Below, piece by piece: positions 7,198 through 53,049 of a DNA stretch of 64,000 nucleotides (positions within the stretch are counted from its first letter, which is position 1; every line of letters begins with the position of its first letter). Origin of the DNA: Nereocystis luetkeana (Eukaryota > Sar > Phaeophyceae > Laminariales > Laminariaceae); assembly GCA_031213475.1 (NCBI GenBank), contig JARUPZ010000004.1:5155169-5219168 (forward strand), written 5' to 3'. The position numbers and the translations under genes are program-made. Under the pieces are notes generated by a model. The model did not search any database, was not told the DNA's origin, and saw nothing but the letters and a program-made list of their open reading frames with translations.

Positions 7198-8088
7198 AGC
7201 TCTCTTGCGTGCCGCGGATGGCCTCCATGCCGTTCATAATAGTATGGCCGCCGGCGTCCACTGTGGGGACAAACGTCTCCCCAAGAATTCCTGTGGCATA
7301 TCCGCTGATGCCGTGATGGTCGATCGCCAAGTTCATCTGCCACGTGAGATGATCAGGAAGGTCGTACTGGTCGGTGGGGTCTCGCATGGCGACTTGGTGC
7401 AGTTTTCCGTGGCTGACGCGAACCGTGGCGGTTGGGGTTGAAATCTTGAAGGAGGCGTGTTCGGACTGGTGAGAGAAAAGCCCTCCGTCAGTAGTCATGG
7501 ACTTCGCCACGTAGGCAGCGCATTCCATCATGTTCGTGGCAGTGGGGTCGTCAAGAATCCACTCGCTCATGGTCTGGGTGGCCTGCACTAGTGGGGTGTC
7601 AGTGATCAATTCGGCCGTGTTCTGCGACTCAGAACCGCCGCCTTGACCAACGCGGACTTGTTCAAGAAGCTTCCTCTCCCAGTACTTCTCGAACCCAAAC
7701 GACCTGCACGCCCCTGGAAGGTTAACGGCGGAGACCTCGACGCCTGGACCTGGCACAGCTGTGCCGGGTGTAGCAAGGGCGGTTTCTCCGTCGACGATAA
7801 CGGTCAGCGCGCCGTCGGCCAGGCAAGTGGACAACCCTGAAGGACAGGCGCTGTCTAAGCTGTGCGGGGTGTTCACAGAAACGGCGATACTGTGTTCGAT
7901 ACCATCCGTCCCGATGGTCATCAGGGATATGCCGGTAATGTAGGTGATCTCGGGTACATCGGTAACAGAAGCCGTTACTCGCATGTTCAAATGCAACGAA
8001 GGCAAATCTGAGATCAAGGCGTACCACCCCCCACTCTCGCCCGTGAAGTCAAACTTCTGTCCGTGGAAGCCCGTCATGTGTGGGTCAC
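7198..8088 (-). CDS. Exon 25: large C-terminal DPHMTG domain (vWFD / root-cap-like)
   Basis: The 891-nt exon follows acceptor CGTTAG and runs about 297 codons to donor GTGAGTA at 7,197. It starts G-DPHMTGFHGQKFDFTGESGG, followed by WYALISDLPSLHLNMRV, and later contains SFGFEKYWERKLLEQ, HASFKISTPTATVRVSHGKL, MRDPTDQYDLPDHLTWQMN and MEAIRGTQES. The DP.(MF).G..G..F.F.G...Y.L.SD..LH.N.R pattern recalls the von Willebrand D fold and the plant root-cap/LEA-like family. I recognise it as a recurrent C-terminal domain in brown-algal LRR proteins; its biochemical role is not known to me. The donor leaves one base (T), so a last exon starting with two bases is required. If this intron were retained, translation would stop at 7,067. 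Confidence 0.85.
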
Positions 8089-11000
8089 CTAACGTTCGTG
8101 AAACACGAGGCCATGAAGAAGCTGATGTTAAGGCAGGAGGCACTGAGCCATGGGTTAACTAACACCCAAAGCAGCATCCAACTCGTGTCCAGTACCTAGC
8201 TTCCCGTTGCCCGTACAGATAACTGGTTGCTCCGAACATGCTGTGTAAGTGGTAACCCGTGAACCAAGCGTACCCGTCAAGCCCCGCCCCTGTTTTCACC
8301 ACTGGTAAAATAAATGTGTTTACTCTACGTCGTGCTATGTGCAAACATATGGTTTCAATATACCGGAGATGGTTCAGTCACGTGATCATATTAGTGCTAA
8401 CCTGCTGGCCGCCAAGCCCAAGACTACATACAAGCCGTGTCATAGCTCTCTCTCGCTTACCGCAGGCGCTCAAGACGCCTCCAAGAAGTAGCTCGCACGT
8501 TTGCGAGGCCGGGCAACAGACTTCGCTATCTGCACACTGTTCATCACTTGTGCAATCGGCTGTTAATCCGCGGCGAACGAACGGCCAGCAAAGAAAACGG
8601 CGACAATCAAACACGTGCCGCCACCATACGAATGTTCATGACATCCGACGGTGGTCAACCCACGGGCCACTACAGTAGAGTTTGAAACTCTACCCTGCGA
8701 GCCAGGGGCAGATGTCCAAATGGCCTACACTATTACCAGGGTATGAGGCAACATCAATCGTGCTATCGGTTTCATGCACCATGTGTTCACCACTCAGCTC
8801 TGGGCTTCGATATCACCGCATGACCTGTTAGCTCTGGGCTTCGACACCATCTAGCTCGTTTTGTGGTAGTCGAAGTGCTGCAAACACCGGCAAGACGGTT
8901 TCTGGATTAACAATATCCCCCTACCGTGTCATGGCTCGGTACCATGGCGCGTCTGCTGAGGGTGTACCTACGCTACGATTGATTTTAGTTTCGAAACACG
9001 TATTTGTCATCCGTGACCATGTTGGTTCTGCAGTGTGTCCTAGACAAAGAATCGCTGCACATTATTACCGCTCGGTTACCACCAGAGCGTGAACTTTGTA
9101 TTTTGAGGCTACTAACACTCACCGAAAGCTGGACACGATAGCGCCTTGATCGTCTCGGTAGTAGATCCACCTGTGAACGCCGAAGACACACATATAGAGG
9201 GACGCATGTAAATTCGTAAGAATATGAGTGGAAGGTGCGCAGGGATATCGCTCTGGATAAACTCCTCCGAGGGATATGTGCGGGTTCCCTCCCACTCGTT
9301 CCGATGCAATTGCCGGTCCATAGGCACACGACGCGTGACTACAGGGTACCCTGATTACGACTCATTGCGCTGAATGACTGTATCACACTGTACATCTATG
9401 TTGTGCTACATTTGATCACTGTTTCGAGACCATCATTCATGTCAGCAAATCAATGTAAGACAAAGTCCCGGTACTTGTTTTCACGACTTTGAGTTTTGTA
9501 AAATAGGTGTAAGGATTATGGGAGAAACAGACGAGGTCTCCAGAGAGGGGGGTGCTACAACGTCAATGTCGACAACACGGTCTGTGCTCATGAGTAGCGT
9601 ATTGCTGCGATTGCGACCCGGAGCCCAACGCTATCGCCTAGAGTACACACGGCTCTTAGGGGTCAGGAATGGATTGCCAATTTCGATATTTTGTAAACCT
9701 CAAACAACGTAACGAGTTCAACCACAAACCGCAGCCGACAACCGTTATGAAAAGCAAAATTCTTCATCTGTGAAGGTGAGGCAGTAATGCGTAATAAGCG
9801 GGGTTTAGGATCGCGACACCGATACCGCGTATGCTGTTCACCACGTTCAAATTGAAACACACACCGCAGCTGTAGCCAGCTATGCCAGGCTGACACTCGC
9901 AAGGAGTACCATCTTCGCTGCACACGGGGTCTTCCGGGCACCCTGCGCAAGCGGGCAACGTTGACCAGAACGAGGTCGATCTCTTCAGCAACAGACTCTA
10001 ACGGAGCCAGGCAAAATAAACTGTCTCGCACATACTGTGGACAACTTGGTATCGCTTCTCGACGTACGAGGGGAACCCTGAAGCTACGAAGCACAGTACA
10101 TGTTCCCGAATGTTCCGAAAAGTGGGCAACATTCTCTGACATAATTCCTAGAGACAAACTGGCAGCAAGCGCAGAACAAAATCGAGTGCCCATAAGATCT
10201 CCTGCCGCCAGCGAAGGAATACGGCAGCCGTTCGCCGAGCAAGGACACAGAGGACACCATGCACCAAACTTGCAATACATGCAGTGCCTACTGCGTCTAT
10301 GCCACGTTCAGAAACACACCATTTTGACAACAGCATACCCGCTACCGTAGTCCCAGTTGGAGTGTATTTCCTGTACATTGCGTACGAACCCAGAGAGTGT
10401 GTGAACCAGCCAAACCAGGTGCCGTCGGCAGCTTATCGACAAACGTGCTGTATTTCTCAAACCGACAAACAATCAAATTTGTCGTTGGTGCCTCATCGCG
10501 TCTTGAGCAGATGCGAGCTCAGTGGGCGACCCTTAAACCCCGGTTTGAAGCTCGCCCGAAATATACACAGCTGAAGTATTCTGCATCTTCAAAAGGGTGC
10601 ATATGTTTGCCTACAATATGATGGTTTGCCACTTACCGCATAAGGTTGTCTCGGCGAACGCTTCCGGAAGGGTCACCATCTCGGCGTCTCTTTCGATGGG
10701 CGTAGCCCACAGGTGTGCGGTAAAACCCGTTTCCGATACAATGGGCATCGCGGGTTAGCGAATAATATTCCGTAAAAAAGAGGTAGGGAACAGGTGGCTC
10801 CGCCGACAAACCCCCCGCGTTATGTGTACCATTAGGCTCTATATCTCATCGTTCATGATCTCATACGAACGCTCCGACGAGGGTAAGTGGACTAGGCTGC
10901 AACTGCACTGATCCAACCGAAACCAGATTACGCAAAATTTGTAAATTTCTTGGGTGTCTGGGACGTCTTGCTGTGTGCGCGGTTAAAAAGCCCGGAAGAC

Positions 11001-14000
11001 GGCAAACGTGTTCAAGCAGAAATATAGTAGTGGCAAGGTCGGCCCAAAAAGTGAGTTGGCCGAACCCCTGGAAATCGTTCTACACCGAATACACCGAAGA
11101 TTTTAAAGATACTGGGGGCCGGGGAATCTTCGACGATATTCCAATCCAATGCAACGCTACGTTCAATATGGCTCACGTGGTAGGAAGGCATTGGAGATCA
11201 TCGTTGTCGTCCAAGTCCCTGCGAGAGAGAAAGCACATCAGGATATTTGCCCGGACGAAAAATGGCCTAAATCGATCTTCGACCACATACCAGAGGATGT
11301 CTTTGTTGAGGACTGTGGGCGTTATCAGCGCGCCTGCTGCAAAACAAGGGGACAAAGACTTCGGCCTATTCCAGATATGAGCTTGCGTCATTAGAAAAAT
11401 CATATATACTAGTTGAACTCGTTGCGCAAGATTAATGAACCTCCTGATAGTCTAGTCGGACGCTCGCGGGAGGCTGAACAAATCAGTTCCGGCCCAGGAC
11501 AGGTCATCCATTATACACAATATTGCCGGCTATATCTACTTCATGCATAGACACAGCATATTGTGCACAATGGTGTTCCACATGCATATATCCATGGGTG
11601 CCCATCGTTCTGAGAGTTAGGCTTAGGCTAGAAAGGCACAATTGTTGCATGTAGTTCTGAGAGTTAGGCTTAAGCTAGAAAGGCACAATTGTTGCATGTA
11701 GAACAGAAAGGTAATTCCCGCTAGAGGTATAACTGGCTAAAGCATATTCATCGGTCGCCCGACTATCGCGTGTACCCCAGTCAGGGACAACGCAATCCGG
11801 CAGACAACGGAGAGTAGCCTACCCCCCACGAGATACCACTCAACGTGGCCAACACAAGCGTTACACGTACTACAGTAGTGGACAGCAGGGTTGGTCTCTT
11901 ACAAATCCTGAAGTGACGGAAGCCCATCGAACAACCCGGCGGGCAGGGTAGAAAAGTCGTTGCCATCCAGAGACCTTGATGCGGAACGCCGAATCAGAGC
12001 GTCACCCGTTCAGTGACGCATGACTGGATATCACAGCACGGCTGAAGGACCACCTATTAAAAGTCAAAATCCTGTTCTATTATAGATACCGCAACATGTA
12101 CGAACACGAACGGACCAGGTATGTATGGATCGACGAAGAGGATTAACAGGAAGCTCAAGGCGTTTTTTTTAGCCGGAAAACGGGGGCCACTATCAACAGT
12201 CATGAATATTCTCGCGGTTTGGTGTTCTATTGGACGTTGCACGGCCCTTGTCTCATTCCCAAAACATGAAAACGGTCATCGTTACACAAAAATCGCGGTA
12301 ATCAAGTCCCGCCCTTGGGATCCTTTCGAAAACACTGGACCGAGCTCAGACCGTAAGCCATATAGATGCATCTCTGACATGGAACGCGAAGTTCCAAGGC
12401 ATGAATTGGCTATTCATGAGCGCATGCATACACGGGATCTGAAATTCTGAAGACGTCAACAGCTGCAAGAACCCCAGGCAATCCTGCGTTCATTGCGTCG
12501 CAGATTGGCACTTGACATGTGGAACTGATTGCAGCGCATCTAGGTTGTAGGCAAGTCAACGTGGTATACACCAAGGCTAGACGTAACGTTGCTCCACGGA
12601 CAAGTACAAACACAACATATGCCCTGACAACACATACGTAGAAGCATAGGCACGCACTCAGCCAAGAAAACGTATGCCAAGCCTTGCTCGAGACAGTGTA
12701 GTATTACTCATGTAGGCGTTCACCCAGGTTTTGAGCCAAGTCACCTCGTGGGTGGGCAGGGTTGTTGTTGTTGTTGCTCATACACGCACCCACCATACAA
12801 CAGAGCCACCGAGTGCCACGTAGGTTTGGCAACAGCTGACCGCTCTGCCACCCTCGAAGATCCCCGATAGTCGTAACAACAGAAGATACAGCGGGTCTGC
12901 CGGGCTACGAAACTATTTGGCAATACCCGGGGGCCTATCGGGGTCCCGTAAAAAAAAAATCGCCATACTTTATCGAAGCGCTAGAGAGAAAAGGGTGAGG
13001 TGGACGGTGCCAGAGAGATTACATTTGCCTCGAAGGGCATCGAGATTTTTTTGGCGTGCTATAACACATAGGGGGATACTCTCTAGGTATCGTTCTACCG
13101 CTGGGGGAACCGTTCTACGATACAGGTTGACCTTGCTCTTTCAAAGGCTCCTACGAATTTTGAACCCGGGGCCCTGCGGAATTCAACGGAGACGAACACA
13201 TCAATACGATCAACGTTGCACGCACCTTGCGCGTGAGCGTATGCAACATGCCCAACAATGTAGAGCACAATATGCATTATCATTCTTCAACTCGCGCCCG
13301 GCAAGGACGCCGTGGTGGCTCAGAAACGTGTTTTTTCCAGTTGTGATGCATCTATCGTTGAATGCCTCGTGTATCAATCTAGAACACTTCTCTATTGCAT
13401 CTGCGACGCGTACACACATTCATCAGCACGGTGATGGTGTACCCGGTGCATACGACGCAGATGACGATAAGCTGCGCACAGTACTGAAAAACGCTAGTGC
13501 ACTCGATACTAACAATTCTAGAAGGGAGACCAGGCCATCAAAAGTTTCCGTTGGCAGAGCGGCGAGCTTGTTGTTGCTGATCAACCTGCGTATTAAGCAT
13601 GCACAGTGACGACATTAAACAGGTGCGCAACTGACAAGAGGGGGGACGCCAGATGAGGTTGATCTCGAGATGCGTGAAAAATACCCGCAGCACATGAACG
13701 ATACGAGACGGCGCACCGGACGAGATCTTGCTAAGACAAATCACGCTGTTTCACAAACGTGAAAAGTACCGTCGGTGGAGCCAGTCTATACGGCGAGGCA
13801 ACTATCGAAATCCATACAAAAAGCATGCATTCGACTCAAAGATCTTGCTACGATCTTCACTTGAAGTTCGTCCGTCTATGATATATAGTAGGGCGTCAAA
13901 TGTGCAAACCCGCGTTATGGAACGAGGTATCTTGACCCCACGATTAGGATAGGCCGGTTCAAGAACCGACGTGTTCAATAGCACAGTCTTACCCCGCTTC

Positions 14001-17000
14001 ACTAGCTAATTGATGAAGGTGCCACCGTGGGTGCCAAACACATGTGCCCGAATACCTTCGGTGAACGCACAACTCGACACCGTTCAGCATTTCACACATG
14101 TAGCATCAAGCTCGCTCTATGCCAGGCTTGCACTCGCCTACCACAGATTGAGGCCGAGGCTTTAAGACGGAGTGACCGGATGAGAAAGAAAAATGTTCGG
14201 CCGCAAACAGGAAAAAAAGGATCAACGCATGTCAAGATTTAATGCGTGATATATACTAGCACGGCCACAGCCAACAACGCATCTGAACGTGCTGTCACGA
14301 CAATAGAGGCGTCTTGTAGTCGGGTGGATTTTGAATCCGCCCGATGTATTTACCAAGGGTCTAAACGTCGCAGCGGTGGTGATGGGGGAAGGGTTAGAAA
14401 CACTGTCTAGCGATGACGGCTGAAGACGTGTAAAAGGGTAGGGTTTGGCACAGAGTACTTACACGGGACTGCGGACAGCAGGGCACATCCGTGGTTGTTG
14501 ACGTACCATAACGACGATATTCTACGAGGCAGGCCGTTACTCTACCTCTCACCATACCAGACTAGCGCCATCCTGCTCACCCCATGCGCGCATCCGTTCC
14601 TATGTGTCGCTGGATACTCGAGACATCAACGCGTGTCACGGACCTAGGTGTTCGTTCTTGCGATTGGATAAGTGTTACAACCCTTGAAAAATTTAGTTTC
14701 CCGCATTTCAGATATAGTACAAATCGAAGCTGTAGGGTGAGGAAACGACGATAGAACTTGTTTGCAATATATACAATTGAGGATATGTGTGTGTTGTAGA
14801 AAACGGTTCTGAACAATGATTCGCCTGCTCACTCTCAGTAGACAAATTGTGACACCAACCTCGGCCTCAATCTATGACACTTACAACTGCTGCAGCGACG
14901 TCAAGCCACCAAAAACCTTGGCGGGCACCGTGGTCAACTTGTTGAATCTCAGACTCCTGCACGCCGAGGAAGTAACGGGATTGAGACGGACAACGTGCGA
15001 TATTTGTTACCTGGAGGACGGCGGCAATGTAGGTCGAGTTCATGACCTGAAGCGGATGACATCGGAACGCCGGCAAGTGCTCAGCTTGGCCGGCTAGATG
15101 CCTGCCCGCCACGCGTTGGGCTGCACACAGGTCGCTCCGCAAAGGTGTTTACACCGTAGCCTTCGTGCAGTCTTTATGTTTTCGTGTACGGTCGAGGTAA
15201 GTCTATATCGGCGGAGCGGGACCATTTGGCAGGGAACGAACCGTTAACAAAGCAGACAATACTCTACACCCTACTGCGTTTAAACGGTGACGCGATTATT
15301 AAATGGGACTACTACTACTTTTTCTCACAAGGTTTCCAACCCCGGCGTGCCTTGGAAAGTCCCTGCCTCCAGGGTTCTCAACGAGTTGGAGCAAAGTGTC
15401 CTGATGTAGAACGAGCAACGGCAGAACGCCGAGGATGGTATGGGTATTTAGGTCAGATGCCTACTCGACGTTGTACTCGTTCACAATAAATTACGTGTAT
15501 GTGTTTTGACGTGATGAAACATCTATAGCACAAAAAACACGATAAATATACATCACTGTTGGTTTTATGGAATTACCATCAACCAAGTAGCACCTTCAAA
15601 GCCTCGAAGACATACGTATCCACTCACGTCTAGACGGACGAAGCAGTACGTGAGACGCCGAAATTCCTGTGTGTTTCACAATTTCCTCCCTTGACGTAGA
15701 ACGTGATCCCATGACACTACAACAATATGTTGCTTCTTCAAATATGATCAAAGCACCGATAAACTTCGTTCACAGCGCAATCGCTGAATGTGACTGAAGG
15801 CGGGCACGGACGGACGCAACCTCCCCCCCCAACGCCTTGCGATCGGGGTGCCCTATAGCTAGAAACGACCTTGTTGGTGAATCCTTGTCCTCGAAAATCG
15901 AGGTCACAGATATTTGCGCTAATGCAACACGGTTCATCTCGTATTACTCACAACCACGTGAGGGACTCCAGATCGTCGAAGATTCCCGTTGGCAACACAG
16001 ATAAGTCGTTGCCCTCTATGTTCCTGATTTGTATAATCAAACAACATGGAAGTGGCGTAATCGAGGAGCGCGAGGAGCGGAGAGGGTTGGCGTGGCTGTT
16101 GTGTCCTTTGCAGAAATTGGTCAGTGATACTAAAGCATCGCAACAGTAGACAACACCAGCTAAACACGACGAGCTGATCGGGCGTAGGTTCGACGAGCCC
16201 CGTCGGTTAGTGGGCATGCAGAACTCGGCGGCAACCACGTCTGCACACCAAAACGAGTCCTTACGACGACATGACATATCAGTGGCAGTGACGTGTGCTA
16301 CGGTAAGATACTCTCATGTTCACTAGACAATCCCGGCAGTCGGGCGACTGGCTCTGAGTCTCACCCAGTGGTGGGCGCCGAAAATATTTGTGGGCGCAGA
16401 GCAGCAAAACAGTCCAAGGCTGTGCATGCTGCCAACCGGAAAAGCTCAAGTTTTGAAAAATTCCAAGGGATCACGAGGTCACTTGGCCGAGGAACACTAG
16501 TCGTCTGAACAACCGCATAAATGAAGCGCCCTCCCTACCGTAGCATCCGTCCGACGTGGATTTCACGACAACGAAAATAATCAAGGAATACGGAATTCAC
16601 GATGCCGGAAACAGGCAGCAGAAACCAAGGTATGTCGTGGTACCGAATACATGGCAAAGTCCATGTCTGAAAAATCAGCAACACCGTAAGTTTTTGTCCG
16701 TCATCAGCTCTCCCCGTCGACTGGAATATTCGAGTTCCGCGTTGCGGTTGGTGAGTAACACATCTCCTAAAGTATCGTATTGATCAGCTATAGTGGAGCT
16801 CGCATTCAATGGTGCATGTACGAAGGTTTGTAAGTCCGCCCTGATGAACACATTTACGTACGTACTAGCATGGGTCCCAGGAGCCTACACAGCCTGACAG
16901 CTTTTGTTGTCGACTGGTGTGTAATGATCGTTCCTGTCGTTTGCAGACTTTTTTATTGGAAACGCACAACACCTCGAAACGCCAAAAACGTTGTCCCCTT

Positions 17001-20000
17001 TCGGTTTGGCGCTTAGACTGCGGTCGGTCATCGCATTGCCCATGTAGGTCGTGCGGCCAAAGCTAGCTGAACGCGTGGCACCTACATCAAACGTCTACGA
17101 CCAGTCGACTGCTACAGGATAGGTTACCGAACCTCTCATTGTGCTGCATTCACCAGTGAAAATAACACCTAGGAGGATAGCTACAAGAGGCGTCAATTGC
17201 GACAATGCACACGGTCTCACAGTCTCTCCAACAAGGAAGCACCCTGGAAGTGGTCAGCCAGTAGCAGCAGGGGGTCGTTGAAGGCAAGGTTCCTGATTCA
17301 ACGTTGCAAGGGCGCTCGACCGTCAGCCCGGATCAAGCAGTTACGGGGACTGGCCATTGCGGCAGCATTCAGCCAGATAAAACATTTGCCTATTGACCCG
17401 GCACGTACACAAGAAGCAACAATTTATACGTTAAGATCAGCGACAATACATTCGTCAAACACACGGCGACTGTGTCGTCCGTACCTGAGCGGTGGGTTTA
17501 CGAAATGTGCCCGCCAAAGGCGTTTTTGTGTACCCTGCGATACGGGTGGCGGCTGGCTTCTCTAATAGTCCCCCGTGGAGGAGCTCTCACTACACGTTTC
17601 GATTGGAACATGTACCAAACAACTTTGATAATATGATAAAAATAACACGCAAGCATGTGAAGCCCGGTGCGCAGTCCCCTGGGTTAGGTGCACCTGACGA
17701 ATGAGTAAGACATGATACTCGAATTCAACAACAATTGGGCGTAGCTCTCCTGTCAATATGTATATTCCATCCGTGCGCAAAGTCTGGCGTCACAAAAAAA
17801 AACCCTACTCAGGCGTTCTACGACAAAGGTTCAACAATAAATGTTTTAGGCTCCTCACGTGAAGAGCTCCATGTGATTGGTAAATCACCCGATCAATGAC
17901 TCCAGTAACAATCATATGGCACGCCGATGAATCATCCCATGTCCCATGTATACGAAAACGTCATTTTTCGGCACAAGGTTGGCATTCGTACTATTTAGGG
18001 CTAAGGAACCGCGTCATTTAGAAACCATTTTAACGGGAAAGAGCTACCTCTATCTTAGAACGCGTCTACTGCAGGAAGAGTATTTTTCTGACATGTTTTT
18101 TCTATCAACGTGAAAATACAACCAAGCACCACCGAGTTTTTGCATACGTCGGATACATCATCAACCCCACAAAATGATTTACATTGTTCAAACCCGGGCC
18201 ATTCCCGGTGTAGTACGATCCAGGTCGTGGTTCCGGGTTCGAATGTCTATTATCAGCAACGCCAGGGACATATTTTCCGAGTAAACGATTTACTATGCAT
18301 ATGCTCAATATCCTCGATTTCAACAATAGGCGAGGAATGGGATGGTGTATTTTACATCATGATGTATCCAATGTGTGCGCGCTTTTAGACAAATACGCCA
18401 CGTCACCGTTAACAGGCCAAACATCGACGCTTGAACGACCGCAACACGGTCGGTTTCCACAGCCCTCATACTCGAGAGATGTAAACTATGAGGCTGCAAA
18501 CACTGGCGGCATGAACATGTGGGCCGACGCCTATTCTGACCGATGCTATCTAAGAGGTTGAGGACTAACCGGGATAGAACAAACATCTCCACGTAACTAT
18601 GAACACCCAAGGAAACTGAAATATGCGCGGAATTCTAAGCTAAGACACGGAAGGAAATATATCGCAAATCACGCTCGGCTAGGGACGCAGCCTGAGGCTC
18701 ATGATGGCTCACCCCAAATACTTTTTCATTCGGACTCGCCGCTTATCTCTTAGACCTGACTCACAGTGATCGTAGCGATGTCAAACCGTCAAAAACGCCC
18801 ACAGGCAACTCATTGACGATGCTGAACGACAGGTCTCTGTAGCCATTCATTATTGCGTCGAGGACAAGCGTTACACGAGCGACAGCGGAGGGTGTTCGAC
18901 ACGATCATTGGTGTGGTGCTTGTGCTGGACAAGCCTTCATGAGAGGTGTTCCCAAATTATCCTCATCATATGTTCTGGGACGGAACCACAGTGCGTTTTG
19001 CCACCGATGCGAAATATCGTCGCTGGATGCTGCACAGACGTGGAGCGTGGTATGTGGCTCCCTCGCAACTAGTAACATTTTCCGACGCCATTTCCGACTA
19101 GGAAGCAGCCTCGAGCACAACCCCCGAATACGCAATATGCATCAACATAGAAATTGACGGGGCTACCATCGGAACCCAGAGAGCACCTTCTGTTCTTCGC
19201 AGCTATAATCAGGCTTGGGCCACATAGAGCGTCCTTCAATCGACTTATCATCAACCCCTCGCTTACAGTTCCTTCAATGACGTGGCACCCTCGAAGTCGT
19301 CGACCTTCACGGTCAGGTCATTAAATCCAAGATTCCTGTATAGCCGTTGCAGTTGGGTAGCAGTCAGGATTGCGACAGTGGTAAACTAAACAAAATATTT
19401 CGGCCCCATTCAATCGAATGCAGCGTTCTCGTATACCCGGCATTTCAACCAACCTACACCGTTCACGGAACAAAGCTAGCCTACCATTTATGACTCACCC
19501 TAGTCACCTATTTGGAAAGATATACCAGATACGATACACATGGTAGCTTCAGATGACACTCACAGAATCTCGAGTGATGGGAAGTCTTCGAAGACGTGGA
19601 CAGGGACCGCGGTAAGCTCGTTGAAGCGAAGACTCCTGTGTGGCATCAACATACAGGCAACGGATTGGTCGACGGTAAAAAAAATGTGAAGAGGAACCAC
19701 CACGAAAATCGGCAAACGTGCATGGAGGCCATCAATTGGAATGCGTGCTGCACCTGGAGTGTGTAGATCAGTCGGAGTAAGCACACGTGTTTTTGTTGTT
19801 GTCGGACTGCGAAGTGGCTACGATACGGGTTGCCCATAACCTAACGCACTATATATATTTCTTGGTGTAGAGAAATACGTAGACATCCAACCTCTTTTCC
19901 GGAATCCCATCTCTCGGTCATAAATTCCTTCCTCGCACGGGCGGGTAGGAGCGTCATCGTTTCTAGGCTTTGAATGAACGGGCACCCCACGTTCTAATCA

Positions 20001-23000
20001 ATCGGACGCATTTGTTGTAGATGGGCACGGAAGGTTTGCCTATTTCGTTGTCTGCCATTCCTGTCTGGGCTAGGAGCCATGTAAGATCGGAACTTTGCTT
20101 TCTTCCTTGGGCAATCGATCAACAGAGATATGACAAGAAGTGTTCAATCACATTTGGCGTTCGTCATAAACCGCAAAGTATTGCAATATAATGGCACAGA
20201 TGGTTAATACGAATGAAGCTGGGTAGATCGTAGCAGCACTCACAATTCCCTGAGGGTTCCCGCAATGCCGTCCAACGAGCCAGAGGGAAAATCGCTGAAG
20301 TCGTTGCTGGATAAATCTCTGCATCCATAATCGTGGAGGAGAAACGGCAACGACAGTAAGCGGCTCCTCCTCTTCCGGACACGTTGCCTTAAGTGTCGTA
20401 CAACTGAGCACCGAACGAGGGAGCATCTCCCACGCTCCCACGATCGCAAGAATCCGATTGGAACACATCAGGGCTTCAATTTTACATGGGTGAAGAACCG
20501 TGGATATGACCACAATGAGGGAGGCGACAAAGGTTTACTGTAGTGAGGCGAAAGAGTTCATTTTCCCAACCCCTTTGCACCGCTGAATCGCGAACGCTGT
20601 CGCAATATACTATTGAGATTTATCCTACATTCTCACGGCTGAACGGGATCATATCCTGTCCCGGCAGAACAGGCCAATACCGTAGTTCCTGATTGCAAAG
20701 ATGTGTATGCTCCTCCTCCAGTCAAGGGAAAACAACGAACTGCCCGCTCTTTGTTTCAAGCAGTGTTGCACGTAGCTACGACCGCTTTTTTCGTAGGTAT
20801 CTTAGTAAACTCACAGGAACTCCAACGCAGGCGTTCCGTCGAAGGTCCCTGCTTCTAGAGTAGCCAGTCGATGGTCGTTCAGCCACCTGTTTTGCAGCCG
20901 GGGAAGGTCGTAAGTAAAAACAACGTATTGGCTGCGCAACGTTTGACTGTACATCGGACACGTTAGTGTCTTCCAGGAACGACACATACGACACGAACTG
21001 GTTGAATACTTGAGTAAATACGACTACAAGTTCCCCGCCGGCACAGTCCATATTCTCAGCGAAACGTCACTAATGTACTCAATGCCGCCGCCACATGGAA
21101 ACCAGAAAAAATCACATTGGGTAAATCCCGAAGCAAGCGGATAGTTGACGATTTTACGAGGAGTTATTGAGGTTATCCCGGTGTGCATTTGCCCCTGGAA
21201 CGTGGGATAGTGCCGCTGTCCCCAGACAGCCACGACACGGACCGGACGCTCAAGAACAAGTAGTGGAGTCCCGCTAGACGGATCAAGGCGCATGTCGTCC
21301 AGTGTCGTGCGAAAGCCGTCCGCTTCCTCGCCGGTACCCCGTAAACTGCAGTGCCCCGTGTCTTCACTACTCGCTCTTCTACCATACGGGCACACATCCA
21401 CCGTTCGGGTCAAACACATCCTTGCTGCTCGTTTTTCTTAGACGACTTGTATACACGTAGGCGATGAAGGGACGTGGCGGAATAAGGTGTGACTCACAAA
21501 GTCGTGAGGGACGTCAAACCATCCAATAAACCGGCTGGCCAGGTGTCAAATCTATTTCTGGAAGTTTTCCTGGTGCGGCACGGCAGCGGTAGGAAAATCA
21601 CCAAAAGGGAGAGTCAGCGAATGGGAAACGTTGCGTTTTGAATTGAAGCGATACAGGAGTGACGCGCCTGACTGGAGTATTCGACGAATTGTTTCGTCCC
21701 AACATTCTTGGTAATCCTATGGGAACGTGAAGTGAACACGACTTGCGGACACTATTGCAGTGGACCATAGTGAAGAAAACCAGATATTGTTGGTAAAAAC
21801 AGCGAAATATACAGGTTTGTGTGCGTCTACCGTAGGTCCTATTCAATATGGCCCCCCGTACTACCAATATAGTGTTACAGCTAACGTGCAAACTAGTTGC
21901 ATGGTGATCACAAGCATGGGGCAGGGGTTTCCAAGCCAACACCACTCGGCCACACGTCTGCGCCGGACGTGCGCTTTTGGAGTTTATTTTCAGCATCTAG
22001 GCGTTAATTTGAACCTATATGTCTCCACGTCGTCCATAAGAGAGATATCAGACCGAGACTACGTGTCTACAGTAGTGCTGGCACAAACTACAATCTAGAG
22101 GTAGTCCATATGCCCCTGAGGTGGGCAGTCGTGCCAGCCCGATAGCCGCTGTCAAGAGATCACCGGGATGCTGTTTCATTGGGGCTACACTGAGCATGTC
22201 CCGAAAAAACACTTGTTGTCGAATCTTCACTGGGTGCCTCATCCGAGGAGCTGGAGTATGCGTTACTCGACAACGGTGACACCACCCCCTAACAACCGAT
22301 ATATCGTGAAACACCACCCAAAAAAACATGGCAAGGGTGTTGTGTGGTTCTCGGGACATTTTTTGTATCGTCAATGGAGAAAAGCGCCAAACACACAACA
22401 GACACTGAGATTTGTATACATCAGCCCAGGAAGAAATACAAGAGTTCAAACACACCAGGAATTTGAGAAGAGCACTTAGCGTGAAGGTTGAACCTTGCTG
22501 CGTAGATACGGCAACGACAGAGTTATATGGCAGTTCGCTGATTTACCTCGTTTTAAAACCAATTGAACTTACTCATTTATCACTTACGGGAACCCGAGAC
22601 GAACTTAGTGACCGCACATGACTACTTAATGTAGCGTTGGCAAGTTTTCAAAGAAGACGGGAGTTTATCGGACAATCAAAACGTTGCAAGCAATCAGGGG
22701 CCTCTGCTGGACGCGTAGAAACGATATATATACCAAACATACGAGAGCGCTCAACAGTCCCCGAAAACGCGTCACGTCGACTAAAACGGCCAGAATGCCC
22801 CCTAGATTGCTTGGCGACACTGCCTCTTTCACAAGTAGGGGAAAATATTCCAGGTAAACTCTTCACTAATATATACCTCTGTCACAGCTTAGCTTGCTCC
22901 ATGTGTCGGCTCACTCACAGCTCAAGAAGGTTCGACATCTTGCTGAAGATGCCGTCCGGCAAGGAGGAAATACGATTATCCGAAATATCTCTGATTGGAC

Positions 23001-26000
23001 AATGCACGAGAGACGACGAAATACCAAGAAAGGGCAGTGAGGTATCTCTGTTACGAGTTGCAAGTACCCGGCAGACGAAGTATACCGAAAAACATCCAGG
23101 TTATTTCTGATTTATGTCGGTTGCTGTAATTGCGCCTGGTAGTGAGTTCGTTCATATACAACCGATTCAAGACGAAGACCAACAACAGTGCTTACATCCC
23201 ACTGCAAGTTTGACGGCTACCCGAGATACACATATTATTTATTAATATATACCTGGTATATATCATCCATACTTTTTAGCTGTTGAAGGTAATATCCCAT
23301 CGATCTTCTGGAAGACCGGTGGTGAAAGGTGTCTCAACGTCTCCGCCCCGGTACGTGCCCTCATTGTTATCTCGCACATGTGTCAGTGCTCCTACTACTA
23401 CTGCAGGTCGATGCTCATCAAATGGAGGTCACTCTCGCTCTGGCGGAAGACCAGTGGTGAAGGGTGTCTCAACGTCTCCGCCCCGGTACGTGCCCTCATT
23501 GTTATCTCGCACAGGTAGGTGTCAGAACTCCTACTGAAGGTCGATGTTCGTCGAATGGAGGTGACTCTCGCTCTCGCGCTTTCCCGCCAATCATTTTTGA
23601 TGTGGAAAAACGACCTCACGACTATGCATTCGGTGAGAATCGAACCTACCTATGAAGATGATATTAATAGGCGCGCGGACCGTCAACTAAGCCACCAAGG
23701 GCTCCGGCGAGATGCAAGGAGCTGAACATGTTACTCCGACATCAACGTAAACTTGCAGCCGTACCAAGGCGCCGAGCGAGGCGATCAGACTGGCGTACGG
23801 GATCAGCCCTTGTGTTGTTTAAAAACCCACTCACAGTGTCTGGAGGACTGGCACGTCATCGAAGATATCGACTGGCAAGGTGGTGAACCGATTATCGGAA
23901 ATTTTCCTGTTTTTTAGTCAAACAGCACGAGGCGACGACCAGGAAACACTGAAAACCCGGTCGAAGACATTAGAGCAGTCGCCGGAGAGAACATTATACG
24001 TTGTATTGTTTTCAGTGAAATCACAAGCAATTCGCAGCTACCGTACTCGGAATGCGTTCATACTGGCGTTTTCGTTTTTTTCCGCACGTCAACACGTACG
24101 TGCGTACTCCCTCATCATTCGACGGACACACACGAGAAACACATGTTGAGAAATGCGCTCATAACCAATGCACGCATGAGGGAGCTGCTTGTGACAACTG
24201 ACCTAGCGTGAAGTACGTCTTCATGGGCCGCCAAAAACGTGTTGATGGGTACGTAATGTCACGGTAAAAATGGACAGCAGCCGACATGCACCGCCAATTG
24301 CCGACGGCATGCATGCTGACATATAAATGCTGCATAAATCAGACCTTTACCGTCAATACGGTATACGTCTATAGGTTGGTTGTTCATTTGAGACTCTAAT
24401 CGAATTGGTGAGGTTGTGCTTTTTTATTTCATCCTCTGGGGAATTGGAAACGACAAAGCACAACCTCATCACACTTCCACGTTCTCGTGTCGTGTGTCAA
24501 TTTTACTTGCAGCTCTCGTCGTGAATGGAGGGTCCACTTACAATTTGAGCAAGGAATCCAGACCCTCGAAGACACCAGATGGAAGACTCTCCGAGCCAGT
24601 GTTGTTGAAGATGCTATTGCAGTCAACAAATATGTCGTTAGGGAATTGGTGCGGTGGCGAAGAGCATAATGTCACGAACTTGTTCTATACGTTGCTTCAA
24701 CCAAGATAGACATTGCAGCCGAGGGATAATGACCAAAATTTCCATCACAGGCTGAGCAGGCCTATTTTTTCTTCCCCGAGTTCAACTCCGCCGCGGAGCC
24801 AGCCTCAAAGTTATTAGATCGGATCGTACGCAAAACGCAAACGTGCCTTGCCTCGATTAAACTGTTTTTCACTTACGGATTCCGAAACGTATGACGCAAC
24901 AAGTAAGCAAGTGTGAACTCTACCGTACGTGATCAAGATTCTGTAAATCTATTATAAATCAACACTTTGTTTGCTTACAGCACTTCCAAGGAGGTGGCTT
25001 GTACGAAGTCGCCGCTGGCCAGTTCCATACCGTTACCATGAAGGTTCCTGGTTTGCCATGGCAGGGGCAAGCGTGGCACAACACAACGGAGAGTCGGCTC
25101 ACTCCACTCACTGCTGTCTTCGAAAATATGGCAGTTGCTGAGCATATCACAGAATTCGAAGCGGAGCCTTTGAGCCTAGTCCTGATGAACATCAACGCTG
25201 CCCACACAACACGAAACGCATCGTAAGTAAGTGGTATGCTAACTGTTATTGTTTTCTGGCTGCATACTTCGATTACCGTCCTGTATCGCGGCCGTTTCTG
25301 TTTGAAAGGATGGCATTCGTTTGGTACATTCTGCAACAATCAACCGTCAGACTACCATAATATGTAGGTGGTAACCCCACTGCTTGAGATGCCTGGCCAC
25401 TATGAGTAACGGGGGCTGGAGACGCAATATTGTTAGCACCAAGACGAATCATGAAGATATGTTTACGATACCAGGGGTCTCGATACTGCATCGGTATCAT
25501 CCTTTCCAGACTAAACATATACATCCTCGTGCTCACAGTTCGCGTAGAGACTCCATACCCTCGAAGAAACCAGATGGCAAGGTGTCGAGCTTGTTCCGAG
25601 TGAGGATTCTGTTGAAGGTCATTGCAACCGCCACCGTTAGACCGGAACGAAGCGACAACGATAAATGCATGAGAGGAGGGCGACGGTACGCTGTCACCAC
25701 CACGCGAAACGTTTTTCGTCCTACTCTGTAATGATCGGGTTTGCCTGGTGTGTTTCTAGAGATGCATGCGCAGCAAAGTCTTCCGATGAACAAAGTCTCC
25801 TTACATTGAAACGGATAACTACGGACCGTGGGGCAATCTCGCACATCACTTTTACTCCGGTAAAGAAATAGTATTCACATACATACGACACACGAACTAC
25901 GTTGCTCAAGCAAACGTTGGCCTCATAGCCGTGGTGGAAATCCTCCAACTAACCGTTCTGCTACGCCAACAGCAGCGAACAGCATTCTTCGCCGGAGCAC

Positions 26001-29000
26001 TGGCAAGTTAGCTCGCACTCGAAGTGTCTCACTCACAGTGAATCCAAAGCGCTGAGACCCCGGAAGGTGCCGGCTTGTGGAATCAACTCATTGAAGTCCA
26101 AGTTCCTGCATCACCGTTGTCGCAGATGAAGGAAACTGTTACAATATGTACAGCACTGAAATCGTAGCGTCCGGGGGGTTACAAATACTTCGCGTGTAGT
26201 GTCAATTGTTTATTATTGGCAGGTTTTTGATAGTGTACGAAGAACTCTGCCACAATCTGGAACGCCAGGGATAATCAATAGACGCCCGCCGGAGGCGAAC
26301 CACACGTACATACAATCTTAAACACACACCTGGTGTTGCTGGCAGTCATAACATTATTATTTTGTCACAACAGAGGGTATGGCGGCGGACAGGATTTCTA
26401 CTGGGGTCGTGGGCATCAGAGCGCGTCAGAGCACGATTGAGCACCGCTTTAATGGCAGACCATCGTCGGCATTAACGTTGTCATCGGACAACCTCAATCC
26501 CGACTGTACGGATGTGCCGAAGGTATGAAATACCCGAGGTATGCCGGTATGTCGCTGATACGAGATACCAGCTTTAACGTTACCGAGCATTCCAGGACCT
26601 CAAAACTGGGACTTAATACAATAGCACTAATCATCCAGTTCAAATTCGACACGTAAGGAACAATGGCTTCACTCACAACTCAACAAGAGCGTCGAAGCCG
26701 TCGAAGAAGCCCACTGGGATGTTGACGAGGTCATTCCTGCGTAGGTTCCTGGGTAAAAGCGCCGACACCATCGGGGTGGGTAAGAGGAGAGACAAACGCC
26801 AGCAGAAAAGCGAGTGGTTTTGACATTCTCCATTCGTGGGCACGCGGACGAGGAACAAATCTCCCAACTCGCAGGAACAAACCGAACGATACATACATGT
26901 TGAACATCTGCTGGGTGATAATGCGCCAATAATATCACATGTGATGTGTTTGTTTTAGCCCTGTAGCCGTACCATACGTCGCTGTGTCCTTCCAGAAGGA
27001 CGCTAAATTTCTGTGCTCCGGTCTGCCTGTTATTTTACCTTGTTCCTAGTAATCATCTGTTTATATTTTGTGGTAGGGTTTGTTTCGCTTATACTGCATT
27101 CTCTGCCTCATCTGCGGGGGGGGAACGACACAGTGAAATACTTTCCGTGTTCTTTTAGTTGTACTTTATCATTTTTTTGTGTGTGTGTTGCATTCGTCGT
27201 ATCCAGGGCGGTTGTTTGATTTGGCAATGTCTAGTCTGCTGAGCAACAACTGCGTAAAGGGAGAAAACATCCAAGAATATGCATTCGCTCTGTATATGCA
27301 TCGTACGCGCGCTAACTGCGACCAAAAATAAACTTCAAATACCTTCGAGGTGGTGGTGATGGGGGGGAGTGGGAGTGTATATAGGGTGGTTTGCATCCGC
27401 AGTCTATGGTATCGAGCAAGCACGATTACCTTCATGATGGGCTCCATTGCCAGAGGGCGACGACAGTTTTTGGTATTCTACGGCTTTGGTTACTGTTCGA
27501 TAACTTATACCCTTTCACGATTCAAACTTTGCGCTCACGGTGTCCGGTGGATCCTGCCGAGGGTTAATTATATTTCTGCCCATCGCGGGTGTGAGCAGGG
27601 TGCCTAAAAGGATCACATCAGGGTGGGATCAAACTAGCCAAGCAGCGGCCTGTTTTGTTTTCTAGCTTTTGTTTAGAGGAATTTCCCAGAACGTTAGCTA
27701 TCTACAACATGGAAAACTCACTCTGCTTTGCTGCATTTCAATTGAGTACCTGCTGTATCGCGGTTGCGTTACCACAGCCCTCGTGTTTCCAGTGGATTGA
27801 ACATTCGGCACGGACACTAGTTGTGCTGGATGTCGACGGGTAGAAAGAACGGTAAAATGTGAAGAACAAACACAAAGACGTCAATCAGTTGCTCACACCT
27901 AGGTAGGTGATGAATATTTGCCGCTTCCAAATACATATTTGGAAGGTACCTACCTGTCGAATTCCCGATCTGCCCCAGCCGGGCGGCTAAGTGTCGACGG
28001 TACATATGGATGGTGACGTATTGATGAAATATACACACGTTCGACCCGAGCCCAACGTCTACCAGCCAGGACATTTGCACGCTCGCGGTCATGCATTACT
28101 CACAGGTACTCGATGTTACTGCGCCCGACATTGTCGAAGCACGCCGCAAGATCAGCTAAATCTTCGTCGGCGAATGCGCATATGTCAAGCTCCCTTGAAA
28201 CATAAAAGAGCGCGAAGGGTTGAATGTTTATCGTTAGTAGGCAAGATTACGATTTATGCTCGTACAGTAGAATACATGTACGGTATGGTGTGGTATACGA
28301 TTCAGGTTTAACCAAGAGGGTAAACTGTCGGCCGGAACGAGGAAACTGGAATACCCCCAGAGACCGTCTCCAACAAATCTGATTTTTATGAACTCCTGTT
28401 TTATTTCTACACCGTTATGGGCTAACCTGTCAGCGAGGAACACACGACGGGGCCTTCGGATAAATGGTCTGCTTCCGAGGATGAGCTGCGCTGTTCCGGT
28501 TGACAGATTGCGTTGCCATTGTAAAAGGTTTTGTCAGCGGCCCACTTGGAATCGGCGAGGGCACGTCACGCTGAATATTCTGTCTAACGTGTACACATAA
28601 CATGACGGTTTCTCCAGCACGCTGGATACAGAGACTTTGCAGTGGTAGTAGAGAAAGCAATAAACTACTGGTGTAGTATGTTTTTCACAACGGTGAATGA
28701 TGGTACTCGGCCAAACACACGTATTGCACATTTCATTAGCAAGAAGCGAAAATGCATTCCAAGAGGGGATGTACAAGGTTTGACTTCTTCTTGTTACGAT
28801 GACAACACTGCCTGCCGAACTACGGGGAGAGAAGCACCATGGTGTTCTTTGAAAAGTATCTCCCGGATAAAAAACCATATATATAACCGCTCGATACGCG
28901 CCATATATATGTGCCATGTCAAGGTTTCATGCCGTAGATTCCAAGTACTTACACGGTAGTAAGTCCAGTGGCGCACGAATCTTGTAAACGGCATCGGCTT

Positions 29001-29410
29001 TGACCTGTAGCAGGACCAGAGAAGCTAAAACGTTCGAATCATCCAGGAACGTGTTTAGAGTAAATTACATGCACGTACTGAAAGTGGGATTCTCCAAACG
29101 AATGGGGGGAGGGTTATCTCAGGCACGCCAAGCAGAAAGTTTGGATGCTCCATGTTAACGGCCGGAGCGGCCATCCTTGAGGTGTAGCCATCTCAAGGTT
29201 TCCATTCAACAACACATTCGTTACGCGAGAGGGCAGTAAAACCAATAAATATCGCCAGTACAATTCACGTGCGCTTGGTTGGTTCAAGGTGCAACATTCA
29301 ATACATCACTCTGCAGGAATACACGTTGATACCGGGTAGGTGTGAGCACATTGGTCCTCACCATTCACGGCCACCGCAAGAAGTAAGAGTACCAGAAATT
29401 TGCCGAACAT
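7198..29410 (-). CDS. Secreted multi-exon LRR protein with C-terminal DPHMTG/vWFD-like domain (25 exons, last exon missing)
   Basis: I rebuilt this gene from splice sites. Exons: 29362-29410, 28953-29004, 28104-28193, seventeen single-LRR exons between 26748 and 11903, then 11177-11218, 10637-10689, 9865-9942, 8461-8559 and 7198-8088. All introns are GT-AG, all phases join, and the 857 codons contain no stop. The product starts with a hydrophobic leader (MFGKFLVLLLLAVAV), then a cap segment with LDICAFADEDLADLAACF, 17 LRRs of 23-25 residues, a Cys-containing end cap, two Cys-rich modules and a domain of about 297 residues starting DPHMTGFHGQKFDF. It should be secreted or cell-surface, since I see no membrane segment in the known part. 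LRR proteins of this kind bind ligands; a role as a recognition receptor is inference from brown-algal LRR families. The protein looks intact; only the C-terminal end is unknown. Additional cassettes in the larger introns cannot be excluded. Confidence 0.85.
8461..8559 (-). CDS. Exon 24: second Cys-rich module
   Basis: The 99-nt exon, acceptor AACAG and donor GTAAGC, begins A-DCTSDEQCADSEVCCPASQT and continues through a CELLLGG segment to SAC-G. Six Cys residues in about 33 residues, with a CC pair, suggest a small disulphide-bonded module, different in pattern from exon 23. It is phase 1 on both sides and joins the C-terminal domain exon through a Gly codon. Confidence 0.8.
8793..8858. repeat. 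Short direct repeat in an intron
   Basis: TAGCTCTGGGCTTCGA-type sequence occurs twice about 36 bp apart (CAGCTCTGGGCTTCGATATC and TAGCTCTGGGCTTCGACACC) within the intron between exons 23 and 24. It is a simple local duplication. Confidence 0.6.
9865..9942 (-). CDS. Exon 23: EGF-like Cys-rich module
   Basis: The 78-nt exon, acceptor GCGCAG and donor GTGTGT, reads G-CPEDPVCSEDGTPCECQPG-IAGYSC-G. The Cys pattern CxxxxxCxxxxxxCxCxxGxxGxxC is that of a short EGF-like repeat. It begins and ends in phase 1, so it could also be duplicated or skipped without a frame change. It directly follows the LRR cap, a common place for a Cys-rich stalk. Confidence 0.8.
10637..10689 (-). CDS. Exon 22: linker exon, phase switch from 2 to 1
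   Basis: The 53-nt exon reads T-DAEMVTLPEAFAETTLC-G. It joins the previous exon through AC plus A (Thr) and ends one base into a Gly codon at donor GTAAGT. Together with exon 21 it forms the C-terminal LRR cap. It is the only exon here that changes intron phase from 2 (LRR array) to 1 (all following exons), so it marks the border between two modular blocks. Confidence 0.78.
11177..11218 (-). CDS. Exon 21: half-repeat closing the LRR array
   Basis: The 42-nt exon follows acceptor TCGCAG and encodes L-DLDDNDDLQCLPT, ending AC before donor GTGAGC. It has the first half of an LRR (DLDDN) and then diverts into DLQCLP. A final partial repeat with a Cys is the usual start of a C-terminal LRR cap. 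It keeps the phase-2/phase-2 pattern of the cassettes. Confidence 0.8.
11607..11700. repeat. 47-bp tandem duplication in an intron
   Basis: Two adjacent copies, 11,607-11,653 and 11,654-11,700, start GTTCTGAGAGTTAGGCTTA and end GTTGCATGTA, differing at about one base. The near identity means it is a recent duplication in the intron between exons 20 and 21. Confidence 0.85.
11903..26748 (-). CDS. Exons 4-20: seventeen single-LRR cassette exons
   Basis: In gene order the exons are 26677-26748, 26037-26105, 25537-25608, 24979-25047, 24542-24613, 23835-23906, 22919-22990, 21498-21569, 20815-20886, 20244-20318, 19564-19635, 19267-19335, 18765-18836, 17221-17292, 15952-16023, 14885-14956 and 11903-11974. 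Thirteen are 72 nt, three are 69 nt (26037, 24979, 19267) and one is 75 nt (20244). Each starts one base into a codon and ends two bases into one (phase-2 introns both sides). Each encodes one LRR of the form xLxxNxLxxLPxxxFxxxxSLxxL, for example SLDGNDFSTLPAGLFDGLPS at 11,974. Donors are GTGAG or GTAAG; acceptors are mostly CAG. Cassettes at 23,906 and 22,990 are similar in DNA as well as protein (KISDNRF..LP and DISDNRI..LP), which suggests a local duplication. The repeats should form a curved ligand-binding solenoid. Confidence 0.88.
11975..14884. other. Largest interior intron of the LRR gene (about 2.9 kb)
   Basis: This intron separates the last two full LRR cassettes. I searched the minus strand for further 69-75-nt cassettes with the donor/acceptor pattern and found none. 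A plus-strand frame of 230 codons (12,917-13,609) is open but has no recognisable domain, is very rich in Arg and His, and is treated as chance. Confidence 0.55.
23290..23712 (-). mobile_element. tRNA-headed SINE-like element with tandemly duplicated body
   Basis: The element lies in the intron between exons 9 and 10. Read on the minus strand it begins with a tRNA-like head: an A-box-like TGGCTTAGTTGACGG (reverse of 23,680-23,694) and a B box GGTTCGATTCTC (reverse of 23,635-23,646), spaced as in a tRNA. The body then contains a unit of about 135 bp present twice (offset 135 bp, units starting near 23,310 and 23,445 on the plus strand) with the core AATGAGGGCACGTACCGG. The core recurs, diverged, in the tRNA-headed repeat at 48.7-49.0 kb, which supports a real SINE family. 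The exact 3' end and target duplication were not determined. Confidence 0.6.
28104..28193 (-). CDS. Exon 3: N-terminal cap of the LRR array
   Basis: The 90-nt exon encodes V-ELDICAFADEDLADLAACF followed by a short segment ending SNIEYL. The acidic helix-like segment with two Cys before the first LRR is typical of an N-terminal cap, and I recall similar starts in brown-algal LRR proteins. It enters with one base, leaves with two bases (CT plus G completes Leu) and ends at donor GTGAGT. The join continues directly into the first LRR exon at 26,748. Confidence 0.8.
28953..29004 (-). CDS. Exon 2: short Cys-containing adaptor exon
   Basis: The 52-nt exon follows a good pyrimidine tract and CTACAG acceptor and ends at donor GTAAGT. 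Entered with two bases after exon 1, it reads G-QSRCRLQDSCATGLTT-V. Two Cys residues follow the signal peptide. It enters in phase 1 and leaves in phase 2, so it converts the leader phase into the phase used by every LRR exon. Another frame of the same stretch looks hydrophobic (SNVLASLVLLQVKADA), but that frame lacks a Met and breaks phase with both neighbours. Confidence 0.7.
29362..29410 (-). CDS. Exon 1: start codon and signal peptide
   Basis: The ATG is at 29410-29408 on the minus strand. The exon encodes MFGKFLVLLLLAVAVN plus one base of the next codon and ends at donor GTGAGG (phase 1). The Lys followed by a run of Leu, Ala and Val is a classical secretion signal, with likely cleavage near the N-G-Q junction made with exon 2. 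I chose this start because it is the only upstream Met that gives a leader and a phase that fits exon 2. Confidence 0.75.
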
Positions 29411-42163: not shown

Positions 42164-42214
42164 TTGGCGTCGACGGTCTCGATTTATCGAACCTCTTGTC
42201 CCTAAGCTTCCAAG

Positions 42215-52990: not shown

Positions 52991-53049
52991 GTCAACTAGC
53001 AACGCGCGTCGCCTGCACCACCTGTACCCGCCCAGGCGAATGACTCCCT

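Follow-up and report, generated by a model that had tools for sequence, protein, structure and literature searches.

A 64,000-nucleotide stretch of the genome of the brown alga Nereocystis luetkeana (assembly GCA_031213475.1, contig JARUPZ010000004.1, forward-strand positions 5,155,169 to 5,219,168; hereafter the window, in whose positions features are given unless the contig is named) holds a gene, here called gene A, in which a long series of single leucine-rich repeat (LRR) exons precedes a module with a GDPH motif. Our results suggest that gene A probably encodes a soluble, secreted LRR-GDPH protein whose LRR array would bind matrix, and that its family changed through the birth and death of single-repeat exons (cassettes), not through their reordering. 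The label of a secreted LRR-GDPH protein, acting in matrix or adhesion, suits gene A better than that of a shuffled-exon receptor. Candidate immune receptors of brown algae are credited with diversification by exon shuffling, on the basis of ROCO (LRR) and NB-TPR genes. A predicted secreted counterpart with cassette-by-cassette orthology allows “shuffling” to be weighed against cassette birth and death with order kept, and the two closest genes, gene A and its paralog B, favor the latter. Further, a GDPH domain that has been called diatom-specific is suggested in another photosynthetic lineage. Genes with one LRR per exon and phase-2 introns are already published for brown algae (PMC11378527); as far as our searches show, the apparently new aspects are the secreted LRR-GDPH combination, the cassette turnover, and the occurrence of GDPH on a second single-module exon array. 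A literature search for an LRR-GDPH protein found none in titles and abstracts, which is weak evidence, with subscription papers mostly outside that search.

Gene structure and the cassette array

Gene A runs on the minus strand from 29410 to 6550, and its 28 exons join into an intact frame of 923 amino acids (aa). Exons were found from splice sites on that strand and checked against two paralogs, B and C, on the same contig; we infer the splicing from these splice sites, the intact joined frame, and conservation in the two paralogs. An earlier note, made from the letters of the window, had counted 25 exons and ended the gene at 7198. The present model replaces both readings: at position 7198 lies a splice donor (GAGCT|GTGAGT), beyond which a terminal exon, outside the span of that note, closes the gene with TAA (6550..6605, YRVAGPFDIRFPANTNRI) and is kept in B and C.

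The 19 cassettes encode one LRR each (15 of 72 nt, three of 69, and one of 75) and are all phase 2-2; this layout agrees with the earlier note, but its count of 17 such exons was too low. Pfam LRR_8 matched the LRRNT-like cap and the first 10 repeats at E 2.6e-40. Scanning window 6501-29500 for cassettes returned 16 on the gene strand and 0 on the opposite strand, against a mean of 0.125 and a maximum of 2 when the same scan was run on first-order Markov resamplings (n = 40), and a stricter scan found 15 in gene A and none in the rest of the window, whichever strand was read. Chance does not explain the array. Because the LRR motif crosses exon borders, a scan that required it inside a single exon detected no cassettes. 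The last two letters of the 64 cassettes of A, B, and C are CT in 40 and TT in 24, their first letter is G in 50, A in 11, C in 2, and T in 1, and 3961 of the 4032 ordered joins of two cassettes place Leu at the split codon. Given frame-neutral cassettes and this Leu joint, the gain, loss, or skipping of a cassette would keep both frame and repeat, as had been proposed in the earlier note for any cassette.

Along the minus strand, exon 1 (29362..29410) carries the ATG and a predicted signal peptide (MFGKFLVLLLLAVAV) and is followed by a phase-1 intron, with similar first exons placed in B and C. Exon 2 (28953..29004, phase 1 to 2) encodes an N-terminal Cys segment (QSRCRLQDSCATGLTT; B is 84% identical over 19 aa), and exon 3 (28104..28193, 90 nt, phase 2-2) encodes the LRRNT-like cap (ELDICAFADEDLADLAACFDNVGRSNIEY; identity 87% with B and 52% with C). 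Cassettes 1 to 19 then follow at 26677..26748 (72 nt), 26037..26105 (69), 25537..25608 (72), 24979..25047 (69), 24542..24613 (72), 23835..23906 (72), 22919..22990 (72), 21498..21569 (72), 20815..20886 (72), 20244..20318 (75), 19564..19635 (72), 19267..19335 (69), 18765..18836 (72), 17221..17292 (72), 15952..16023 (72), 15329..15400 (72), 14885..14956 (72), 13514..13585 (72), and 11903..11974 (72). A 42-nt exon that holds the last repeat or LRRCT-like start (11177..11218, LDLDDNDDLQCLPT, phase 2-2) and a 53-nt exon with an acceptor ending in AAG (10637..10689, DAEMVTLPEAFAETTLC, phase 2 to 1) are both conserved in B and C. Beyond them lie an exon of 78 nt called EGF-like by eye, for which Pfam gave no match (9865..9942, CPEDPVCSEDGTPCECQPGIAGYSC; 80% identical in B and 83% in C over 30 aa), a 99-nt Cys-rich exon (8461..8559, DCTSDEQCADSEVCCPASQTCE...), and the 891-nt GDPH (VWD-like) exon coding GDPHMTGF... 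(7198..8088). Exon phases hence fall into two classes, with the LRRNT-like and LRRCT-like exons 2-2 like the cassettes, and the EGF-like, Cys-rich, and GDPH exons 1-1. The introns also hold a 47-bp unit repeated twice head-to-tail with 2 mismatches (11609-11702, in the intron that leads from cassette 19 to the LRRCT-like exon) and a dispersed repeat of ~195 bp (13175-13370) that has at least 40 other matches, at 71-81% identity among the best 40 of 338.

Conserved cassette order and local turnover

Both paralogs match the exon types of gene A, and all of their cassettes are phase 2-2. Paralog B (contig positions 5260758-5292515) has 29 exons, one of them using a GC donor, and encodes 946 aa with 20 cassettes (or 22, as discussed below); paralog C (5431367-5467698) has 34 exons and encodes 1066 aa with 25 cassettes, one of 66 nt. 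The LRRCT-like exon measures 42, 39, and 42 nt in A, B, and C, respectively. At E 1e-5, blastn gave 21 hits between A and B, with similarity nearly restricted to exons and the adjoining splice sites, while part of the A-C hits are intron repeats.

Cassette series aligned better in their real order than in any of 200 order shuffles (real score against shuffled maximum: A-B 446/255, A-C 252/172, B-C 182/149, with B counted at 20 cassettes). In reciprocal-best comparisons, for which B was counted at 22, A and B shared 15 pairs (of 19 and 22 cassettes) with order inversions in 0/105. The swapping and reordering of cassettes that the earlier note had envisaged is not supported by this pair, and free shuffling was rejected for A-B only. 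When only pairs scoring at least 30 were kept, no inversions were seen in any comparison (A-B 12, A-C 5, and B-C 2 pairs). One-to-one pairing between A and B extends over cassettes 1-10 and the last two, and the middle of the array differs.

How the arrays come to differ in number is suggested by remnants in their introns. A profile of the 64 cassettes retrieved 4 further copies from introns, 3 in B and 1 in C, and no further intron copies in gene A. In B, two are 69 nt long, open, and flanked by good splice sites, hence B may have 22 cassettes, and one has lost its donor. The copy in C lies beside cassette C8, is 71 nt long, and would break the frame; C8 and this broken neighbor share 73% identity over 169 nt, a span that takes in intron flanks. 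The intron copies, the C8 duplicate, and the broken frame and donor point to cassettes being born by local duplication and lost by decay. Within gene A, no cassette pair is more than 61% identical, which argues against recent duplication there.

Rates of change along the protein

The LRR array evolves fast beside a slow GDPH module. Ratios of nonsynonymous to synonymous change (dN/dS) were obtained by simple counting on the cassette pairs judged surest (A-B 12 of 16 aligned, A-C 11/15, B-C 7/16), and are rough at a dS of 0.66-1.6. Over the cassettes, dN/dS was 0.45 for A-B (concave sites 0.68, rest 0.39), 0.31 for A-C (0.73 and 0.23), and 0.31 for B-C (0.40 and 0.27), with concave sites placed according to what is generally known of the LRR fold; over the first 10 A-B cassettes alone, the concave value reached 0.87. 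The GDPH exon, by comparison, gave 0.16 in all three pairs, and A-B dS was alike in cassettes (0.66) and GDPH exon (0.71). In A-C, concave sites exceeded other non-consensus sites (41/55 v 39/73, p = 0.017). The earlier note had proposed a dN/dS test at exposed LRR positions; such positions do change faster than the rest, but no ratio exceeds 1. The presumed binding face thus appears to evolve fast, which is not proof of positive selection.

Predicted secretion and the GDPH module

The N-termini of all three proteins are short and hydrophobic (12-residue maxima of 2.88 in A, 2.47 in B, and 2.19 in C; signal peptides were called by eye). After residue 30, no membrane segment was seen by Kyte-Doolittle hydropathy (19-residue maxima A 1.36, B 1.24, C 1.47). 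With neither a membrane segment on this scale nor a recognized signaling domain, the label “receptor-like” given in the earlier note is unsupported. The hydrophobic N-terminus is confirmed in the sequence, as are the Cys-rich modules and the (G)DPHMTG domain that the earlier note described at the C-terminal end.

Genome-wide searches covered the 465-Mb assembly (1987 contigs), in which 68 matches to chlorophyll a/b-binding proteins mark a photosynthetic organism. The GDPH exon has at least 122 matches in the assembly, 79 of them nearly full-span without a stop (a hand count that includes identical duplicates). Two GDPH loci are doubled at 100% identity, one over 3855 bp on two contigs (C39 and C339) and one as a 2416-bp tandem with its copies 8 kb apart (C26), representing either recent copies or assembly duplicates. 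For alignment, 24 of 30 copies were used, after removal of three that contain a stop, one partial copy, and two identical duplicates (one between contigs, one in tandem); identity to the window copy is 49-79%. The G, D, and H of the motif are present in 24/24 and the P in 23/24, and four Cys are invariant. The motif is followed by the pattern F-x-G-x-x-F-D-F-x-G, as in VWD domains. Lachnit 2019 is reportedly a source on secreted GDPH/VWD proteins of diatoms.

The same combination of GDPH and F-x-G-x-x-F-D-F-x-G is shared by the VWD proteins FCGBP, MUC2, MUC5AC, MUC4, and RGMB (PMC10880436). In VWD domains, GDPH is reported to mark an autocatalytic cut between Asp and Pro, which a change of D or H abolishes in FCGBP (PMC10880436). 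Searched against PDB, a profile of the GDPH copies found two FCGBP chains as its best matches (whole-chain E 3.7e-6 and 1.5e-4, which add up the matches to repeated motifs). Some FCGBP repeats differ in carrying a Cys after the motif, which is absent there in 24/24 copies of the window family (domain position 19). In a diatom, 61 VWD proteins with a “diatom-specific GDPH domain” are described as secreted, with a proposed role in adhesion (PMC7335047). These are likewise an expanded family, and tandem LRR genes are noted in the same diatom; the diatom domain was reported as diatom-specific, whereas here GDPH comes after a series of LRR exons in a brown alga, and the likeness is at the level of the motif. 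Relatives of the GDPH domain in viral contigs and in bacterial and archaeal genomes were sought, and none was confirmed.

GDPH also follows exons of another kind. Five further GDPH loci (L048-L052) were read 10 kb upstream and scanned for phase-2 LRR exons, which gave five candidates at L048 (four of 72 nt, one of 81), two at L051 (72 and 81 nt), and none at L049, L050, or L052. Instead, L050 (C30:3436718-3450593) has six exons of 93-108 nt with a CEC...C core in a row before the GDPH exon, and L049 has three such exons of 93-96 nt. All are open and phase 1 on both sides, with the acceptor of the longest candidate placed 47 or 50 nt ahead of the core; other CEC-like stretches at these two loci yielded nothing of the kind, except for one at L049 with a short candidate of another type. 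As read from their frames and splice sites, the CEC exons are a second one-module-per-exon array joined to GDPH. At L052 (C9:3581369-3595211), a subtilase-like fragment upstream of the GDPH exon (GTSAAAP; PF00082, E 0.001, below the cut-off) suggests a protease joined to a GDPH domain.

Proposed function

From its order of parts, the protein would consist of a signal peptide, an N-terminal cap, 19 LRRs, an LRRCT-like end, EGF-like and Cys-rich linkers, and a C-terminal GDPH module. The LRR array could be the surface that binds molecules within the extracellular matrix or on it. By analogy with GDPH/VWD proteins, the GDPH module may mature through Asp-Pro self-cleavage, and may then serve in assembly or anchoring in a secreted matrix or mucilage, as has been proposed for diatom and animal GDPH/VWD proteins. 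The family would have diversified through the birth and death of single cassettes, by local duplication and by decay of splice sites or frame, together with point changes at exposed sites, and wholesale reordering of cassettes would have had no part in it.

Several observations weigh against this interpretation. First, paralog C is less clearly collinear, as its reciprocal-best cassettes show inversions in 12/66 for A-C (12 pairs) and 16/78 for B-C (13 pairs), in both cases from weak matches. Second, the difference between concave and other non-consensus sites is not significant in A-B (35/60 v 39/81, p = 0.24). Third, the N-terminus of C is less hydrophobic over 19 residues (1.15 vs 1.59 in A and 1.44 in B). 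Fourth, and bearing on the GDPH module, the FCGBP match covers only the GDPH motif, ~18-22 residues per repeat, and none of these stretches is significant on its own (best independent E 5.8). Pfam VWD matched none of the 24 copies at E 1 and the window copy fits no family, while three non-VWD families each matched one copy (E 0.035-0.21); unlike in VWD proteins, no VWD model fits the remainder of the 297-aa domain. At domain position 16, 14 residues past the D, the window family has T, A, or V where FCGBP has a Gln that promotes cleavage, and a single-sequence AlphaFold model of the domain was useless (pLDDT, the model's confidence score, 34.7).

Alternative explanations

The layout might merely be inherited from an ancient exon duplication, without present function, in an otherwise ordinary matrix or adhesion protein, an explanation that we consider rather unlikely but the most serious of the alternatives. 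Similar layouts are known in gonadotropin receptors, whose LRR modules are confined to exons that are all phase 2 (cited in PMC11378527), and in NOD and NLRC genes, which mostly have one LRR per exon, with two in NLRP exons (PMC6642158). Unlike the gene A protein, however, gonadotropin receptors and NLRs are membrane or cytosolic animal receptors, and we assume that their LRR exon layout and that of gene A originated independently. The conserved A-B order and the identity of only 38-68% between a cassette and its best match within its own gene would also suit an inherited layout. Yet the paralogs still differ in cassette number, broken copies are present in their introns, and the LRRs evolve faster than the GDPH module.

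Less probable is an immune repertoire, in which cassettes combined through exon shuffling and alternative splicing would yield many microbial binding specificities. Zambounis 2012 is said to be a source on the brown-algal LRR-ROCO genes. ROCO genes of brown algae are reported to carry one LRR per 72-bp phase-2 exon, with shuffling, alternative splicing, and positive selection (Teng 2024, PMC11378527); the exon shuffling that the earlier note had cited for LRR-ROCO genes is published. They resemble gene A in their one-LRR 72-nt exons, phase-2 introns, variable repeat number, and fastest change at concave sites (PMC11378527), and the alternative splicing and positive selection reported for their LRR exons would favor a repertoire here, as would the frame-neutral cassettes with their near-universal Leu joint, the clustered paralogs with different cassette numbers (19; 20 or 22; 25), and the faster concave positions. 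In contrast to these LRR-ROC-COR GTPases, the gene A protein is predicted to be secreted, with Cys modules and GDPH at its end; these modules follow the LRRs in A, B, and C, where no ROC-COR was found, and a genome search for COR-A (PF16095) at E 0.001 gave no match, with 1 candidate scored, although this search may be insensitive. Further, the A-B order is conserved, dN/dS is never above 1, no membrane anchor was seen and no signaling domain recognized, and 2/4 of the extra intron copies are broken, which speaks for loss and not for a reserve.

Two other systems help to place gene A among single-LRR exon arrays. In Saccharina japonica, 15 non-ROCO sequences with 72-bp LRR exons are described, mostly as LRR only and as a possible reservoir (PMC11378527); compared by description, they differ from the array here, which lies within a complete gene for a predicted secreted multidomain protein. 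Tetrahymena likewise has arrays of phase-2 LRR exons with variable copy number, but its exons are 90 nt, with clonal expansions and scrambled order, whereas those here are 66-75 nt and collinear between A and B (PMC6564038).

More daring, and in our view improbable, is a plug-in repertoire, a conserved GDPH chassis of ~80 near-complete copies bearing interchangeable LRR or CEC arrays, diversified by cassette birth and death and maybe by splicing, in which GD|PH cleavage would free the array and leave a C-terminal Asp that could be fixed to matrix polysaccharide. GDPH is also carried by ITIH3, 5, and 6 (PMC10880436), and the C termini of inter-alpha-inhibitor heavy chains are ester-linked to chondroitin sulfate (PMC7170535); a similar covalent fixation to matrix through the C-terminal Asp is speculation by analogy. 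Finally, that gene A is a pseudogene or assembly artifact is very improbable and was rejected: some genomic GDPH copies do contain stops and some loci occur twice at 100% identity, but the 923-aa frame is intact over 28 exons, the GDPH exon is under purifying selection, two paralogs have intact frames, and a 3.3-kb piece of gene A has a single full-length match in the assembly, thereby giving no haplotig.

Neighboring LRR loci and mobile elements

Elsewhere on the same contig, LRRNT and cassette queries gave weak matches (E 4e-4 to 0.03) at contig positions 4905630-4988121, 5534016, and 5582382, for which no GDPH is listed. The LRR array may therefore also occur without a GDPH domain, and a cluster of related LRR genes perhaps extends over ~0.7 Mb. 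An LRR stretch with identical scores was found on five contigs (C8, C1485, C1646, C1705, and C1743; loci L002-L006), and L002 matches both L003 and L004 at 100% identity across 3186 bp.

The window also holds mobile elements. A reverse transcriptase open reading frame (ORF) at 39279-40301 (PF00078, E 5e-7) reads as the type of a long interspersed nuclear element, and a Ty3-like retrotransposon at 42206-48203 is indicated by the domain order reverse transcriptase, RNase H, integrase (ORFs 44049-45710 and 46116-48203). Lastly, a Copia-type reverse transcriptase lies at 53044-55229, with PF07727 at E 4.9e-37 in the ORF 53044-54291.

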